A stretch of DNA of 20,843 bases from a virus. The stretch lies in the IMG/VR virus record IMGVR_UViG_3300021197_000777, positions 1 through 20,843 of that record; one strand, given 5' to 3'. A program made the translations under genes and the position numbers. Under the pieces are notes generated by a model. It searched no databases. It was not told the DNA's origin and saw only the letters and a list, made by a program, of their open reading frames with translations. Positions 4,115 to 20,843 of the stretch are shown here, in pieces. Numbering within the stretch: position 1 is the stretch's first letter; every line of letters begins with the position of its first letter.

Positions 4115-4373
4115 AGATTTTATTAACGATGTAGCTAACCAAGAGTTTGGTAAAGCTGGACCTACGTTCGTAGAGATTATGAAAAGTAAAATGGACGATG
4201 CTTTAGAGCAAGAGAAAATCTCTGTTGCTGGAGAGATGTTCGGACAGACTAGTGATGAAGATGAGGAAAGCGATGTTGAAGATGATGATATTACAGATGA
4301 AGATATTGAAGCAGAATTAGAAGATGAAGCAGAATTAGAAGATGAAGCAGAATTAGAAGATGAAGTTGATTAG
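4104..4373 (+). CDS. 67: Prohead core protein, gp67-like
   Basis: An 89-residue, strongly acidic protein located between portal and protease, the T4 place of gene 67 (80 residues). T4 gp67 is an internal scaffold-core protein that gp21 cuts up during maturation. The N-terminus (MEVKDFINDVANQEFGKAGP) looks like an amphipathic helix. The second half is almost all Asp, Glu, Ala and Leu and ends in three identical AELEDE units encoded by an exact 18-bp tandem repeat (4311-4364). I chose the ATG at 4104 because GGAG at 4094-4097 sits 6 bases upstream. The in-frame ATG at 4092 has no RBS. It overlaps the end of gp20. Sequence similarity to T4 gp67 is weak, so the name rests on position, size and composition. 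Confidence 0.72.
   Translation: MEVKDFINDVANQEFGKAGPTFVEIMKSKMDDALEQEKISVAGEMFGQTSDEDEESDVEDDDITDEDIEAELEDEAELEDEAELEDEVD
4311..4364 (+). repeat. Three exact 18-bp tandem repeats in the prohead core gene
   Basis: GCAGAATTAGAAGATGAA occurs three times head to tail (4311-4328, 4329-4346, 4347-4364) with no mismatch. Each unit adds AELEDE and keeps the frame. Perfect identity at synonymous sites implies recent expansion by slippage or unequal recombination. Confidence 0.95.
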
Positions 4374-6257: not shown

Positions 6258-7613
6258 ATGGAATTAAACACTTACGATCGTCTCGTTGAGAAGTGGGCTC
6301 CGGTACTGAATGAAGACGCAGCTGGTAAAATTGAAAATGCCTCTAAGCGTGCAGTAACCGCAGTTGTTCTCGAGAACACAGAAAAAGCTTTGCGTGAGCA
6401 AGGCATGCTTAACGAAACTGCTGCTAACGCAGCAGCTGCCGGTACAGTAGCATCAGGTGGTGCAGCTGACAACTGGAACCCAATCTTGATTTCACTCGTA
6501 CGTCGTGCGATGCCAAACTTGATGGCTTATGACATTTGTGGCGTTCAGCCAATGTCAGGTCCAACAGGCTTGATCTTCGCAATGAAATCTAAGTACAAAA
6601 CAACTAAAGCTGGTGCATCAAATGGTGACGAAGCGTTGTTTAACGAAGCACTTGTTAACTACTCAGGTGACTCATCTACCACTTCAGGTGGATCAGAAGG
6701 ACCATCAGGTCTTGCTGGTGTATCTGATACAGATGGTGCAGGTTCAATTGTTGACTCAGGTTCATCATATGTACCAGTAACCGGTGATGCTTACACAACA
6801 ACTGAAGCGGAAGCTTTGGGTAGCACTGGTGAATCATTTGCTGAAATGGGTTTCACCATTGAAAAAGCAACTGTGACAGCCAAGTCACGTGCATTGAAAG
6901 CAGAGTACACACTCGAGCTTGCACAAGACTTGAAAGCTATCCATGGTTTGGATGCAGAGACAGAATTGGCAAACATCTTGTCAACAGAAATCTTGGCAGA
7001 AATTAACCGTGAAGTTGTTCGTACAATCAACAGCCAAGCTAAAATTGGTGCACGTCAAGCAAACGTAACAACTAAAGGTATCTTTAACTTGTCTTCAGAT
7101 GCTGATGGTCGTTGGTCAGCTGAGAAGTTTAAAGGTCTTGGTGTACAGCTAGATCGTGAAGCTAACACAATCGCAAAAGAAACTCGTAGAGGTAAAGGTA
7201 ACTTTATCGTATGTTCTTCTGACGTTGCTACAGCTCTTGCAGCTTCCGGTATGTTGGATTACAGCCCAGCGTTGTCAACCAACTTGAACGTAGATGACAC
7301 AGGTAACACTTTTGCAGGTGTTATGAATGGTCGTATCCGCGTTTATATCGATCCATATGCAACTACAGATTACATCAACGTAGGTTATAAAGGTACTAAC
7401 CCTTATGACGCAGGTCTTTTCTATTGCCCATACGTACCATTAACTATGGTCCGTGCAGTAGGCGAGAATGACTTCCAACCACGTATCGGGTTCAAAACTC
7501 GTTATGGCATGGCGTCTAACCCATTCGTAGGTGCAGCACCTGCAGATGGTCTTGCTACAGCTCGTACAAACCAGTACTACAGAATCTTCCGCGTAGACAA
7601 CATCTTAACATAG
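6258..7613 (+). CDS. 23: Major capsid protein gp23
   Basis: Major head protein, 451 residues with an HK97-type fold (T4 gp23 is 521). Clear T4 blocks are RRAMPNLMAYDICGVQPMSG and PTGLIFAMKSKY (about residues 82-112), EMGFTIEKATVTAKSRALKA and ELAQDLKAIHGLDAE, then EILAEINREVV, the RGKGNFIVCSSDVA strand and the C-terminal FQPRIGFKTRYGMASNPF. The shortened Ser/Gly/Thr-rich region near residues 135-195 takes the place of a longer T4 segment. The likely gp21 cut is after Glu53 (LNE/TAAN), matching the T4 cut after Glu65 in LTE. The RBS AGGAG at 6245-6249 is strong and codon use looks optimised. No gene 24 vertex paralogue follows; a terminator does. Confidence 0.97.
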   Translation: MELNTYDRLVEKWAPVLNEDAAGKIENASKRAVTAVVLENTEKALREQGMLNETAANAAAAGTVASGGAADNWNPILISLVRRAMPNLMAYDICGVQPMSGPTGLIFAMKSKYKTTKAGASNGDEALFNEALVNYSGDSSTTSGGSEGPSGLAGVSDTDGAGSIVDSGSSYVPVTGDAYTTTEAEALGSTGESFAEMGFTIEKATVTAKSRALKAEYTLELAQDLKAIHGLDAETELANILSTEILAEINREVVRTINSQAKIGARQANVTTKGIFNLSSDADGRWSAEKFKGLGVQLDREANTIAKETRRGKGNFIVCSSDVATALAASGMLDYSPALSTNLNVDDTGNTFAGVMNGRIRVYIDPYATTDYINVGYKGTNPYDAGLFYCPYVPLTMVRAVGENDFQPRIGFKTRYGMASNPFVGAAPADGLATARTNQYYRIFRVDNILT

Positions 7614-7663: not shown

Positions 7664-7966
7664 TTAATATGTAAACCCTTTTCTCTCTAAGACTCTTAGA
7701 GGAGAGCTATCTATATCATTTCCACTTCTCATCTCTACATATTCTTCAACAGTAAAGTTTTTTACCAAGAACTTTTTAAACGCTCCCATTTTAATAGGGC
7801 TACCGCTATACTTAAAGCGAGCAATAAATAATTCTTTAGGCATTCCTACCCGTGAAGGATGACATTTAGGAGCTACTTGATCCCATGTTGGTTGACCTTC
7901 ATAAGTACCTACATACTCAAGATATCCACCGTGGTAAGTAAACTTAGATTTATCAAACTTAGTCAT
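7664..7966 (-). CDS. Small protein of unknown function, minus strand
   Basis: A 100-residue protein I do not recognise. It starts MTKFDKSKFTYHGGYLEYVG. It contains ELFIARFKYSGSPIKMGAFKKFLVKNFTVEEYVEM and ends in a basic, aromatic tail (RKGFTY). It looks like a small alpha/beta protein with no signal peptide or membrane segment. It is the only convincing minus-strand gene in the window. Two signals make it real: a strong RBS (GAGGAGA just before the ATG) and a sigma70-like promoter 17-bp spaced at 7991-8019. It is convergent with gp23 and divergent from the tail-tube-like gene. The promoter type suggests early expression, before the late head genes. Confidence 0.8.
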   Translation of the reverse strand: MTKFDKSKFTYHGGYLEYVGTYEGQPTWDQVAPKCHPSRVGMPKELFIARFKYSGSPIKMGAFKKFLVKNFTVEEYVEMRSGNDIDSSPLRVLERKGFTY

Positions 7967-16732: not shown

Positions 16733-17671
16733 ATGAGCAATGATTTTCTTTGGGTTGAGAAATATCGTCCTACTAAGATATCTGAAACTATATTACCTCC
16801 TGCGTTAAAGCAAACGTTTCAGAGTATGGTAGATGCTGGAGAATTGCAGAATATGCTCTTCTCTGGCACTGCCGGTTTAGGTAAAACTACTATAGCAAAA
16901 GCCCTATGCAACGAGCTGGGGCTTGATTATATTTTAATTAACGGATCTGAAGAAGGTAATATAGATACATTACGAGGTAAGATAAAGCAATTTGCTTCAT
17001 CAGTATCTTTATCAGGAGGAGTAAAGGTTTGTATTCTTGATGAAGCAGACTACTTGAACCCTCAAAGCACTCAACCTGCTTTGCGAGGATTTATTGAAGA
17101 GTTTGCTAATAACTGTCGCTTTATTCTTACCTGTAACTTTAAGAATAGAATTATTGAACCTTTACATTCTCGATGTGGAGTTTATGAGTTCAATACTACT
17201 AAGAAAGACTTAGCTGAATTAGCTGCTCAATTTTATAAACGTATGTCCTTTGTATTAGATGAAGAAGGTATATCATACGATAATAAAAACGTTGCAGATC
17301 TTATTATGAAGCATGCTCCAGACTGGAGGAGAGTAATCAATGAAGCTCAACGAAGATCAATCAGTGACTTTAATAGTGTCGGTAGTGGTGTTGGTAGTAT
17401 TGACAGCACTATTAACCAGTTAGTAGAACATCTAAAGACGAAGAACTTTAAGAAGATGCGTTCATGGGTTGTAAACCATATGGATGTAGATACTAATGCT
17501 ATCTTTCGTGGGCTATATGACAATATGAATGAGTATGTAGACTCTGGAAGTATACCTCAACTTGTTCTTATATTAGCAGACTATCAATATAAAGATGCAT
17601 TCGTGGCTGATCATGAGCTAAATATTGTAGCATGCATGACAGAGATAATGGCACAGGTCAATTTTAAATGA
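16733..17671 (+). CDS. 44: Clamp loader ATPase subunit gp44
   Basis: AAA+ clamp loader subunit, 312 residues (T4 gp44 is 319). With gp62 it opens and loads the gp45 ring. The N-terminus WVEKYRPTKISETILPP is the standard clamp-loader start. Walker A is GTAGLGKT (residues 45-52), Walker B is ILDEAD (101-106), the sensor 1 region is FILTCNF (about 130-136), and the arginine-finger motif is SRC (146-148). The C-terminal collar helices end MAQVNFK, comparable to LACEMQWK in T4. AAGGA at 16714-16718 is rather far from the ATG. In T4 gene 62 follows directly. Here its place is taken by a halogenase gene that overlaps the gp44 stop by ATGA. Confidence 0.95.
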   Translation: MSNDFLWVEKYRPTKISETILPPALKQTFQSMVDAGELQNMLFSGTAGLGKTTIAKALCNELGLDYILINGSEEGNIDTLRGKIKQFASSVSLSGGVKVCILDEADYLNPQSTQPALRGFIEEFANNCRFILTCNFKNRIIEPLHSRCGVYEFNTTKKDLAELAAQFYKRMSFVLDEEGISYDNKNVADLIMKHAPDWRRVINEAQRRSISDFNSVGSGVGSIDSTINQLVEHLKTKNFKKMRSWVVNHMDVDTNAIFRGLYDNMNEYVDSGSIPQLVLILADYQYKDAFVADHELNIVACMTEIMAQVNFK

Positions 17672-19350
17672 AAACACAAGTAAAGAATATTACTATTTTA
17701 GGTGGTGGTGTAATTGGATGGTTTACAGCTGCATACTTAGCTAAGTTTCATAAAAATATAAAAATTACTCTTATTGAATCTCCTTATGTTCCTATTCTAG
17801 GAGTGGGAGAGTCTACGATTCCTCAACTTGGAGATCTACTTAAATGGTTAGAAGTAGATGAACATCAGTGGATGAAAGGTGTGCACGGTCTTCACAAATT
17901 TGGTAATATGTTTAGTGCATGGAATACTGAAGATCCAAAAGTAAGAGCTGTTGACCATTGGAATACTCCTAAACATCACAGACAGTTCTATACTTTTAAT
18001 CTTACATTTAGGGATAATGTATTTAAAAAGAGTTTCTATAATCCATTAAAAATGGATGATTTTTTCTATGACAATGATGGTCGATACGGCATTGATAATA
18101 AAAGTGTGGACTATTGGTTAGAGTTAGTACGACAAGGTAAATATAAGTGGTATGAGTGGGGGGAGTACACTTCAGATCAATATAACCTAGCTATTAATAA
18201 CAAATCTGTATATGATGATGAAAATGATATTCTAATTGGTGATTGGCATGGATATGCTTGGCATGTTGATGCTGAGCGTTTTCCTTTAGTCGTAAGAGAT
18301 CAAGTTGCTCTTCCTTTAGGTGTGGAATGGATTGAAGGTCATGTTGAGCATATTGCTAAGCGTGAAGATGGTTACATCGATTATCTACAATTAGAAGATG
18401 GAAGACAATTTAAAGGAGATCTATTTTTAGATTGTACTGGGTTTAATAGAGTGCTTATGAAACAAATGGAGAATGAATGGTTCTCTATGAGTGACAGACT
18501 TCCTACTCAAAGTGCATGGGTTGCTCCTATTAAGTATAATGATCCCTATACAGAAATGAAACCATACACTCAATCATATGCTCAAGCTAATGGTTGGAAC
18601 TTTATTATTACTTTGTATAGTCGTATGGGTTCAGGATACATCTTTGACGAGCGCTCAGAAGATAAAGACTCTGCAAGAGAAAGGTTTATTCGTTATTGGG
18701 ATACCCATGAGATGATTAGAGACCCTAAACTACTTCAATGGGAGCAAGGTTACTATAAAGATGCTTGGGTAAAGAATGTAGTGGGTATTGGTATGGGACA
18801 AGGTTTTGTAGATCCAATGGAAGCTAACTCTATCTACGTTGCGCAAAGTTGTATTCAGATGCTAAGTCAAGCCCTGAATAAATATGATAACAGAGAAATA
18901 TCTCACTTTACTAAGAAAGCATTCTCTCGACATATTCAAAAGCTAGAAAATCAGATCTGTGATTTTATTGCATACCATTTTACAATTAGTAAGCGTAGAG
19001 ATAATCCTTTATGGCAGACATGGGGAGAGAAAGGATTACAAAGAAATCATATTGAGAAAAACTGGCAAGAGTACCGCGCGCCAAAAGGCTATCTAGGAAG
19101 AAATCTTTATCTAGATTATCAGTGGGCTCAGCAGCATCATTTCTTAGATAGATGGGATGAAGACTTGTGTAAAATAAATATTGATCCTAAAAAGCTCAAA
19201 CTAGCAGAAGTAACATTTAATTATATAAAAGAGAAGAGTCAAGCATTATCTGAATATGCTCCTCATGTATATGATTGGACTAGAGAAAAACTACATGATG
19301 GAGCAACTCACGATGAAATTTTACAACAGGCATTAGCGGAAAGAAAATGA
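17668..19350 (+). CDS. Flavin-dependent tryptophan-halogenase-like protein
   Basis: A 560-residue member of the flavin-dependent halogenase family. Family members use FADH2, oxygen and halide to form hypohalous acid, which a Lys delivers to an aromatic substrate. Visible features are the FAD-binding GGGVIGW (residues 12-18), GVGESTIPQL (45-54), a Lys77 that plausibly aligns with catalytic Lys79 of PrnA, LDCTGFNRVL (254-263), GSGYIFD (321-327), and GQGFVDPMEANSIY (377-390), with Glu385 at the place of the PrnA catalytic Glu. The hallmark WxWxIP motif is altered to WNFIIT (310-315). No flavin reductase is seen in the window. A viral halogenase (VirX1) is known from a marine cyanophage. The start overlaps the gp44 stop and the end overlaps the next gene, both by ATGA. 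The substrate is unknown. Confidence 0.88.
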   Translation: MKTQVKNITILGGGVIGWFTAAYLAKFHKNIKITLIESPYVPILGVGESTIPQLGDLLKWLEVDEHQWMKGVHGLHKFGNMFSAWNTEDPKVRAVDHWNTPKHHRQFYTFNLTFRDNVFKKSFYNPLKMDDFFYDNDGRYGIDNKSVDYWLELVRQGKYKWYEWGEYTSDQYNLAINNKSVYDDENDILIGDWHGYAWHVDAERFPLVVRDQVALPLGVEWIEGHVEHIAKREDGYIDYLQLEDGRQFKGDLFLDCTGFNRVLMKQMENEWFSMSDRLPTQSAWVAPIKYNDPYTEMKPYTQSYAQANGWNFIITLYSRMGSGYIFDERSEDKDSARERFIRYWDTHEMIRDPKLLQWEQGYYKDAWVKNVVGIGMGQGFVDPMEANSIYVAQSCIQMLSQALNKYDNREISHFTKKAFSRHIQKLENQICDFIAYHFTISKRRDNPLWQTWGEKGLQRNHIEKNWQEYRAPKGYLGRNLYLDYQWAQQHHFLDRWDEDLCKINIDPKKLKLAEVTFNYIKEKSQALSEYAPHVYDWTREKLHDGATHDEILQQALAERK

Positions 19351-20315
19351 TTTATATTGATGGTGTTGAGTACCTTGAAAGTGATAATGATTATATTAGA
19401 AGTGCAGTTATTGATCGACTTGAAGATAGAAATGTTTCAGTAAATACAAGTGGGACTACAGGTCATCCTAAACCAGTTAATCACACAGCAGACTCTGTAA
19501 CAAAAATTAGTGATTATAATACAGAATTTTTTAAGCTAACTTCTAGTAGTACTATGTTACAGTTATACAGTCCTAGAGGTATAGCTTTTACTACTATGAG
19601 TTTATATCCCAGTTTAAATGCTGGGTGTGATCTTTTTATAGAAACTAATATAAACAGATACATTGAACGTATGAATGAGATAAAACCTACTCATACTTTA
19701 GTTCTGCCTTCGCTATATAATACTTACAGTAAACATCCTAAATGGAATACCTTAGACCTCTCTAATTGCGAACAAGTATTAATTGGTAGTGATTTTACCC
19801 CTGTTGATGCATTAACAGATCTAAGAATGTTAGGAGCTAAGACTGCGTATAGTGTTTATGGCAGTACAGAAACTCCTCCAATTATTGCTTACACAGAATC
19901 AGATAATCATTATACTTGGGAAGGTATAAATCCTAATGTTGATCTAAAGATTGAAGCTGAGCAGCTATATGTTAAGTGGAAGCATCAAGATGAGTGGTGG
20001 CGGAGCGGAGACTTAGTAGAAGAAACACCTAGAGGATTTAACCTAGTAGGTCGTAAATTAAATATGTTTAAACTTGGTGAATGTGGGGTTAGAGTTTATC
20101 CAGAGCAAGTAGAGAAGATTGCCATTGCTTTAGGAGCTACAAGAGCTCTTTGTAGAAAGGTTAATGAAAAATGTTATGTATATGTTACTGGGGATGTAAA
20201 CAGTAAAGATTTAATCAAGAACTTTACATTTGACATTGTAGTAAAAGAAGTTGAAAACATTGAAGTAGATAATAACTTGAGAAAAGTAAAACGAGACCAA
20301 TGTATGAAAGAATAA
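19347..20315 (+). CDS. Compact ANL-family adenylate-forming enzyme
   Basis: A 322-residue enzyme of the acyl/aryl-CoA synthetase, NRPS adenylation and luciferase superfamily. These enzymes activate a carboxylic acid as an acyl-adenylate and usually pass it to a thiol. Core motifs in order are A3 TSGTTGHPK (residues 34-42), A5 YGSTE (171-175), A7 SGDL (220-223), the hinge and A8 GRKLNMFKLGECGVRVYPEQVE (235-256), and an A10-like LRKVKR (311-316) with Lys313 as the likely catalytic Lys. Family members are usually 500 or more residues with A3 near residue 150-190, so about 120-150 N-terminal residues are absent. It overlaps the halogenase by ATGA and probably acts in the same pathway. No carrier protein is seen. 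The substrate cannot be read from the sequence. Confidence 0.87.
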   Translation: MIYIDGVEYLESDNDYIRSAVIDRLEDRNVSVNTSGTTGHPKPVNHTADSVTKISDYNTEFFKLTSSSTMLQLYSPRGIAFTTMSLYPSLNAGCDLFIETNINRYIERMNEIKPTHTLVLPSLYNTYSKHPKWNTLDLSNCEQVLIGSDFTPVDALTDLRMLGAKTAYSVYGSTETPPIIAYTESDNHYTWEGINPNVDLKIEAEQLYVKWKHQDEWWRSGDLVEETPRGFNLVGRKLNMFKLGECGVRVYPEQVEKIAIALGATRALCRKVNEKCYVYVTGDVNSKDLIKNFTFDIVVKEVENIEVDNNLRKVKRDQCMKE

Positions 20316-20843
20316 AAACAGATTTAGAAGATTGGGATTTATATATTACAGATAATCCTACCAATTTTTATGTGCAAAGCTTTATAGAAAAGGTTTCACA
20401 AGAACAATCTCTGTTAACAAGACTTACTGATGATCCTTACACTTATGATAGGTTAATTAGGTTCAATCGTAAGTTTAATATATTATGGCTATATAAAGGC
20501 AATCCTGTTTACGGTTTCTTTGCTGTTCAGTATGATAAGCTTCCCTCTAATATAATTAGAATGTATACCAGATTATATAAATTAAATAGAAAAGAAAATT
20601 TATTCTCTCGTGAGTTTCTATTTAATGAGAATAAAACATATTCTATATATTTAAAAAGATTGTTTCATGCACATAAAATTGATACTATCTTCTTTACCAG
20701 GCATACAGCAACCACTACTAATGACATAAATAAATGGAAAAGCTCTAAACGTAATAAACAGTTTATGAATCTCGATATTAAATATGCTGACAACATACGA
20801 TTTAGAGGTGTAGATCAAACCATTTATTACTATAACGCTTGGC
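20300..20843 (+). CDS. Unknown protein, third gene of the halogenase cassette (partial)
   Basis: An open frame of 181 codons that runs off the window end. It starts at ATG 20300 inside the last 16 bases of the ANL gene. I do not recognise it firmly. It is rich in Tyr, Arg, Lys, Phe and Asn, with WLYKGNPVYGFFAVQYDKLPSN near residues 64-85 and YLKRLFHAHKIDTIFFTRHTATT near 119-141. The strand-turn-strand character, with a later Arg- and His-rich stretch, is loosely like phage GNAT-type acyltransferases, but no acetyl-CoA-binding motif (R/Q-x-x-G-x-G/A) is visible. A second ATG at 20304 is out of frame. The overlap suggests translation coupled to the ANL enzyme. Coding potential is supported by length and by codon use like the neighbours. 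Confidence 0.75.
   Translation, partial: MYERIKTDLEDWDLYITDNPTNFYVQSFIEKVSQEQSLLTRLTDDPYTYDRLIRFNRKFNILWLYKGNPVYGFFAVQYDKLPSNIIRMYTRLYKLNRKENLFSREFLFNENKTYSIYLKRLFHAHKIDTIFFTRHTATTTNDINKWKSSKRNKQFMNLDIKYADNIRFRGVDQTIYYYNAW

Follow-up and report, generated by a model that had tools for sequence, protein, structure and literature searches.

A family of short ANL enzymes in marine phages, with few residues ahead of the A3 loop

We analysed a stretch of viral DNA of 20,843 nucleotides (IMG/VR virus record IMGVR_UViG_3300021197_000777, positions 1 to 20,843), here called the window, and in particular an open reading frame (ORF) near its right-hand end that follows a halogenase gene. This ORF encodes a short ANL enzyme and does not have the canonical full-length architecture, in which about 140-190 residues precede the A3 loop: in the window's protein A3 starts at residue 34 and only 33 residues precede it. 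The explanation that we favour, and regard as probable, is that the protein is a self-contained minimal acyl-adenylate-forming enzyme, acting on a substrate other than an alpha-amino acid and passing the acyl group to coenzyme A (CoA) or to a small neighbouring protein. A sequence-only reading of the same DNA had already described a short ANL enzyme with A3 at residue 34 and recognisable A3, A5, A7, A8 and A10 Lys within 322 residues, and the ORF, the Pfam match and a 44-row alignment of relatives all agree with that description.

Catalytic motifs of the window's ANL enzyme

ANL enzymes have two domains, of which the N-terminal one is large and the C-terminal one small, according to a paper that also covers MenE chemistry (PMC6594144). 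The features of the window's enzyme are as follows.

19347..20315, + strand: short ANL (acyl-adenylate-forming) enzyme, 322 amino acids (Pfam match, model, relatives)
19446..19472, + strand: A3 P-loop TSGTTGHPK, residues 34-42 (Pfam match, alignments)
19569..19589, + strand: A4-like SPRGIAF, residues 75-81, a family signature (alignment)
19857..19871, + strand: A5 YGSTE, residues 171-175 (alignment)
20004..20012, + strand: A7 SGD, residues 220-222 (alignment)
20049..20072, + strand: A8 hinge GRKLNMFK, residues 235-242 (alignment)
20274..20294, + strand: A10 NLRKVKR, residues 310-316, with the catalytic-type Lys313 (alignment)

The names A3, A5, A7, A8 and A10 follow the usage for ANL enzymes, of which the A3 P-loop, A5 Glu, A7 Asp, A8 Arg and A10 Lys are characteristic. 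Pfam family PF00501 scores 66.4 bits, above its cut-off of 29.9, and aligns residues 34-202 with profile positions 170-355 of 384 (E 2.7e-18). Because the match begins only at position 170, the region corresponding to the first ~170 profile positions is absent from the protein. As a yardstick, A3 lies at 151-267 of the stop-to-stop frame in all ten long ANLs of one Bacteroidota genome. The start codon is real, since the ATG overlaps the halogenase stop as ATGA (19347-19350) and relatives with different upstream genes share the start MIYIDG. The residues ahead of A3 are themselves conserved, M1-G6 being identical in all rows of a 12-sequence alignment.

PF00501 is matched by all 44 relatives in the larger alignment (E <= 0.001), which puts the assignment well outside what chance would give, and the catalytic motifs hardly vary across it. 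Within A3, which reads T34-S-G-T-T-G39-x-P41-K42 in the window, S35, G36, T37, G39 and P41 are invariant (44/44), as are Y171, G172 and E175 of A5, D222 of A7, and G235, R236, N239 and K242 of A8 (G235-R236-x-x-N239-x-x-K242). K313 and R316 of A10 are kept in 43 of the 43 rows that extend so far. P76 and G78 of the A4-like signature are likewise present in every row, while R77 is found in 41 of 44 and is Lys in three.

Relatives and selection

The sequence-only reading had proposed looking for equally short ANL proteins in other phages, and these turn out to form a family of some size. A scan of IMG/VR with the window's protein alone gave 17 loci, 48-97% identical, and a scan with the 12-sequence alignment confirmed 107 relatives, of which 79 loci were kept. 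The 53 distinct complete relatives, defined as closed ORFs of at least 315 residues, span 320-355 residues and none is longer than 355; this set excludes ORFs left open by a contig end (L013, L017, L018, L055, L058, L086 and L093), a 215-residue relative in L015 and a split gene in L090. Two relatives, in L021 and L043, are listed at 346 residues because of an upstream TTG, but have 322 when counted from the common MIYIDG start. The family has two main subfamilies, one with A3 at residue 34, the other (L063 and its relatives) of 352-355 residues with A3 near residue 64, where A3 is mostly SGTTGxPQ with Gln in place of the usual Lys.

The gene is under purifying selection and is not decayed. 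Of 20 pairs compared by the Nei-Gojobori method, five were saturated and the 15 with finite synonymous divergence gave omega values of 0.026-0.182; comparing the window, L002 and L004 with one another, in three pairs, gave 0.054-0.080. Conserved motifs had been put forward as an argument against decay, a view which the purifying selection and the lack of any complete relative above 355 residues bear out; the outcome that would have spoken for decay, namely full-length relatives and relaxed selection here, came out the opposite way, with every complete relative short.

Two loci differ from this pattern. In L015 (38-685) a 215-residue relative lies directly before an open frame of F13, the small gene family that follows the window's ANL gene. 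Its A3 is deleted in frame, A5 Glu is replaced by Ile, A7 SGD by SDD, R77-G78 is lost and everything from A8 to A10 is gone. Such a joint loss of all catalytic motifs fits an enzyme elsewhere in the family whose function has been lost in L015, and to judge by its sequence this is a dead or repurposed copy. In L090 the ANL frame is broken into pieces of 268 and 83 residues, by a frameshift or a sequencing error.

Predicted structure

The same reading had also suggested predicting the structure of the protein alone, and the result is an ANL fold. An AlphaFold2 model built from 12 sequences had a predicted local distance difference test score (pLDDT) of 67.6; with 44 sequences this rose to 88.0, with a predicted template modelling score (pTM) of 0.76 and every residue at 50 or above. 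The part before A3 folds in this model as a strand (2-4), a helix (15-26) and a second strand (30-33), with block means of pLDDT of 91-95 across residues 1-30. In a VIA-align search all of the 50 matches listed are ANL enzymes (Z 23.7-27.1, 298-313 residues aligned), among them MenE 5gtd (Z 26.7, root-mean-square deviation [rmsd] 2.9, 309 aligned) and PheA 1amu (Z 25.1, rmsd 2.7, 298 aligned). Full-length ANLs (MenE, DltA, MatB, 4CL, FadD8, Cfl and NRPS [non-ribosomal peptide synthetase] A domains) share with the phage family the catalytic motifs and the retained fold (Z 24-27). Ahead of A3 they have ~140-190 residues, against 30-64 in the phage family, and they possess an A6 loop, which the phage family lacks.

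As to which part is missing, the superposition of the model begins near the N-terminus of full-length chains, at residues 15-57, multidomain NRPS entries excepted; the sequence profile instead sets residues 3-33 directly before A3 of luciferase 6k4c and MenE 5x8f. The best Foldseek match is 4gs5, with 350 modelled residues (E 2.9e-16, template modelling score 0.52, rmsd 10.7), and the high rmsd may come from a different position of the lid.

Short ANL enzymes in Bacteroidota

The structure 4gs5 (chain A, Dyadobacter fermentans) is a solved one, of a single short chain of 358 residues. The phage ANL profile aligns with it over query positions 22-257 and chain positions 28-267 (E 0.0083), and its A3, read from the alignment, lies near position 45. 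A 378-residue homologue of 4gs5 is encoded in a Flammeovirgaceae genome (L115; E 1.7e-55). A sample of 61 Bacteroidota genomes contained ten with short ANL frames of 343-416 residues (E at most 1.5e-45), counting the query's own genome. We inspected four of their neighbourhoods. In L121 isochorismate synthase, menD and menB adjoin the short ANL gene, in L122 menC does, and in L123 the upstream frame is menC-like by eye only; around that of L116 no men gene was recognised. Gene neighbours mark some of the short Bacteroidota ANLs as MenE, an enzyme of vitamin K (menaquinone) synthesis, and 4gs5 is labelled an o-succinylbenzoate-CoA ligase from the gene context of its relatives. The best NCBIfam matches of four of the short bacterial proteins are o-succinylbenzoate-CoA ligase models, at scores below the curated cut-offs.

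Four MenE-type relatives have 353-378 residues with A3 at index 52-66. The short MenE-type proteins share with the phage family the motifs A3-A10, the missing A6 loop and a collinear profile: aligned by hhalign, the phage family and four short MenE-type sequences match at 99.2% (E 1.2e-19) from before A3 to past A8. Unlike them, the phage enzyme is shorter (322 residues), has no men neighbours, carries the SPRGIAF signature and has a shorter lid. Two curated models describe other short ANLs. NF005877 (o-succinylbenzoate--CoA ligase, PRK07824; 362 positions) is one of the models best matched by the short proteins of Bacteroidota, whose A3 falls close to its position 48, and is not among the best 25 of 57 NCBIfam models for the phage ANL. 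NF045666 (DVU_1553 family AMP-dependent CoA ligase; 331 positions) matches phage residues 27-176 weakly (E 2.7e-6, 26.7 bits against a cut-off of 300) and from model position 90 onwards, so that it has more residues ahead of A3 than the phage enzyme. The short architecture is therefore rare but already known from cells, and the phage family is a further short clade; this cellular precedent makes its shortness less surprising.

Capture of the phage gene from a named cellular lineage was considered and set aside: one genome scan gave three weak matches to full-length ANLs (22-26% identity), and the tree leaves the placement open.

Genomic neighbourhood

Three further genes of the window lie in the accessory cassette of the ANL gene or at its border.

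16733..17671, + strand: gp44-type clamp loader, left border of the cassette (67% in tblastn to the phage C48C1 clamp loader)
17668..19350, + strand: flavin-dependent halogenase (Trp_halogenase family), 560 amino acids, its stop overlapping the ANL start (PF04820, E 5.8e-86; PHROG 2928)
20300..20843, + strand: third gene, family F13, cut by the window end, ~198 amino acids in relatives, overlapping the ANL end by 16 bases

Neighbourhoods were counted over 83 loci, the window included, after removal of ten second contig copies, a copy of the window (L001) and three cellular loci. Phages that are nearly identical but sit on separate contigs were left unmerged, so the numbers refer to loci and not to independent events. 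ANL neighbours comprise the halogenase, F13 or a second small gene family, F7, a desaturase, the clamp loader, RegA, a tail-fibre-like gene and a DUF6356 protein, and no men gene was found among those tested by Pfam.

In the first genome context, that of the window and about two dozen further loci, the cassette follows gp44 where this is visible, in the order halogenase, ANL, F13 and, in some cases, the desaturase; after it come a gene that by eye looks glutaredoxin-like, then gp62 (PF16790) and RegA (PF01818). The nearest annotated phage, C48C1 (L097, 67% in gp44), has an empty site here; as only 131 bases (6945-7077) separate its gp44 from the next clamp-loader gene, the cassette is accessory. 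In the second context ANL lies after a tail-fibre-like gene, identified by eye, and before F7, with a halogenase 27-30% identical to that of the window between ANL and F7 in some loci. A 72-residue DUF6356 membrane protein (L063:8614-8832, E 4.6e-8), frequent in this context, lies directly upstream of ANL in 22 of the 83 loci.

F13 is found within two genes of ANL in 25 of the 83 loci and F7 in 44. Of the 26 loci with F13, 24 have ANL beside it and the remaining two end just upstream, while ANL is present in 53 of 80 F7 loci and absent from 27. We found no Pfam match and no profile match of any kind for F13. For F7, nine of 17 members weakly match FeeM (best E 0.012), with printed scores against the Pfam FeeM model of 14.3 and 14.5 bits for a cut-off of 27, and hhalign gives 20%; no relation between F7 and F13 was detectable by hhalign (0.3%). 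A role in defence or counter-defence was considered and set aside: searches with PADLOC defence profiles gave no match for ANL, F13, F7, F19 or a third small family, F89, and one for the halogenase, at E 0.021.

The window's halogenase scores 289.6 bits against PF04820 (cut-off 21), and G12, G14, G17, K77, P383 and E385 are invariant in 14 rows, covering the GxGxxG motif and the catalytic Lys and Glu. A halogenase lies within two genes of ANL in 37 of the 83 loci, and seven of 12 larger virus records match its profile, two of these only in part; as the records are fragments, its absence from the others carries little weight. Cyanophage flavin halogenases belong to the same Pfam family as the window's enzyme; 60 phage records match it, with 26-30% identity among the 30 of these listed. 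A viral halogenase of this kind, VirX1, is reported in Gkotsi 2019. Halogenase genes are carried by 20 of 153 cyanophage sequences according to one study (PMC10452541).

Other genes accompany the cassette in some loci. In 13 of the 83 loci, namely L002:1923-2666 (E 7.7e-12) and 12 others, a gene of the fatty-acid desaturase family (PF00487) is present on the downstream side of ANL and F13. Between gp44 and the halogenase some loci carry an F29 gene (11 members, e.g. L028:3428-3973), which has no Pfam match and looks by eye like a 2OG-Fe(II) oxygenase. F89 adjoins ANL in a third context (L056:8435-8953, L068:1977-2459); it has no family match and is acyltransferase-like by eye only.

Substrate and proposed mechanism

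The A4 region, which in known families touches the substrate through a His or an Asp, gives some indication of the substrate class. The NRPS A4 Asp (PheA D235), which binds the alpha-amino group and was located by means of two NRPS A domains, aligns with residue 80 of the phage enzyme. Among the 44 rows this residue is Ala in 21 and Gly in the other 23. The acyl-CoA synthetase A4 His aligns near Gly78. As both contacts are replaced, an alpha-amino acid substrate is unlikely. At a guess, a second acidic group might be bound by Arg77. Judged by alignment, R77, A80, V170 and P178 may be among the residues that line the pocket. PP-binding carrier protein (PF00550) was found in none of 12 virus records, all of which are fragments, and a carrier protein of the host could serve.

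The analysis shows the motifs, the short length across the family, purifying selection, a predicted fold, a precedent in cells and the linkage to neighbouring genes; from these we infer the catalysis, the substrate class, the acceptor and the roles of F13, F7 and the halogenase, and would picture the mechanism as follows. The trimmed ANL would belong to an accessory cassette of a marine T4-like phage, and its A3, A5, A7 and A8 motifs would form the usual site for ATP. Lys313, carried by a short C-terminal lid, would serve to convert a carboxylic acid, probably one other than an alpha-amino acid, to acyl-AMP. The acyl group would next be taken over by CoA, or else by an acceptor that the small neighbour handles, F13 in the window and F7 in the second context. 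The enzyme could dispense with the ~100-150 residues that it lacks ahead of A3, as the short Bacteroidota MenE enzymes do. One could go further and imagine a carrier-free module in which F13 or F7 couples the acyl group of acyl-AMP to an amine and the halogenase, with or without the desaturase, tailors the product to a halogenated N-acyl aromatic metabolite during infection; we think this rather improbable.

Weighing the explanations

The sequence-only reading had offered two explanations for the missing segment: either a partner, possibly the halogenase or the third gene, supplies it, or the substrate pocket is built differently. A partner is not necessary, nor is an altered pocket, given that single-chain MenE-type proteins of Bacteroidota have the same layout. 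Since a halogenase lies within two genes in only 37 of the 83 loci, the family is unlikely to depend on it as a structural partner, and we rejected it in that role. The third gene differs with context, being F13 in one and F7 in the other. That these show no detectable relation, and that F7 sometimes occurs without ANL (27/80 loci), makes a single structural role for both unlikely; moreover, 4gs5 consists of one short chain and the model of the phage ANL alone is confident. Nevertheless, an obligate two-protein enzyme, in which F13 or F7 would take the place of the missing segment in the active site or substrate pocket, stays alive because the linkage to F13 is so tight, with F13 found only beside ANL, one or other family within two genes in many loci, and the ANL and F13 genes overlapping in the window; we consider it unlikely. 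The proposal that the pocket is built differently may hold in part, for the substrate contacts, the A4 residues having been replaced, while the core superposes on ordinary enzymes.

Several observations weigh against a minimal but active enzyme with a cellular precedent. K42 of A3 is variable (Lys in 30, Gln in 13 and Arg in one of the 44 rows), Asn occupies the hinge position of A8, there is no A6 loop, the C-terminal lid is shorter, and the fold is known as a prediction. A dead copy in L015 and a split gene in L090, one each among the 83 loci, suggest that the gene is dispensable in some lineages. Furthermore, although a 25-row tree makes the phage ANLs and the short MenE-type proteins one clade each (100/100), it does not join the two (45/27 support), so the precedent may be convergent. 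The altered A3 Lys, the Asn hinge, the shortened lid and the lost A4 contacts would suit a pseudoenzyme, whose ANL core binds ATP or an acyl ligand for regulation or binding and does not catalyse; with A5 Glu, A7 Asp and A8 Arg in every row, A10 Lys in every row that reaches it, and strong purifying selection, we judge this a shade less likely again than a two-protein enzyme. A MenE captured by the phage to serve menaquinone synthesis in the host would account for the profile similarity to short MenE and for the trimmed layout and lack of an A6 loop that the two have in common. The window's protein, however, scores 35.1 bits with the MenE model TIGR01923, whose cut-off of 330 the short MenE-type proteins of cells miss as well. 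No men gene was found among the neighbours tested by Pfam, and the phage family is a separate clade and not MenE; this explanation is very improbable. Decay does occur within the family, as L015 and perhaps the split L090 illustrate, but a decaying remnant of a full-length gene is scarcely credible for the window: the family is short throughout, no full-length phage relative turned up in the relative searches, and omega is 0.05-0.08 among the window's closest relatives. We therefore rejected it.

Distribution and further observations

A tblastn search of both subfamilies against 50,697 phage records yielded only weak matches, with identities of 20.8-28.4% and E values from 2e-6 to 8e-4, all of them in three fecal contigs that carry no annotation; the window's ANL itself weakly matched only two fecal contigs in that set. 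BFVD contains five further viral ANL models (E under 1e-13), four of which come from uncultured Caudovirales phages; one has 359 residues. No paper on a phage ANL family was among the PMC full-text matches listed, judged at the level of title and abstract; most subscription papers lie outside the scope of PMC. The phage ANLs form a sizeable enzyme family at the small end of the ANLs, suited to asking how much of the fold catalysis needs. Their association with a halogenase, seen in two different genome contexts, suggests that marine phages make an undescribed product.

Two other features of the window were noted. A 100-residue ORF at 7664-7966 on the - strand, opposite to its neighbours and in the gap after the major capsid gene, is a plausible gene, and an acidic repeat of EDEAEL units at 4291-4373 lies at the end of a 93-residue ORF.

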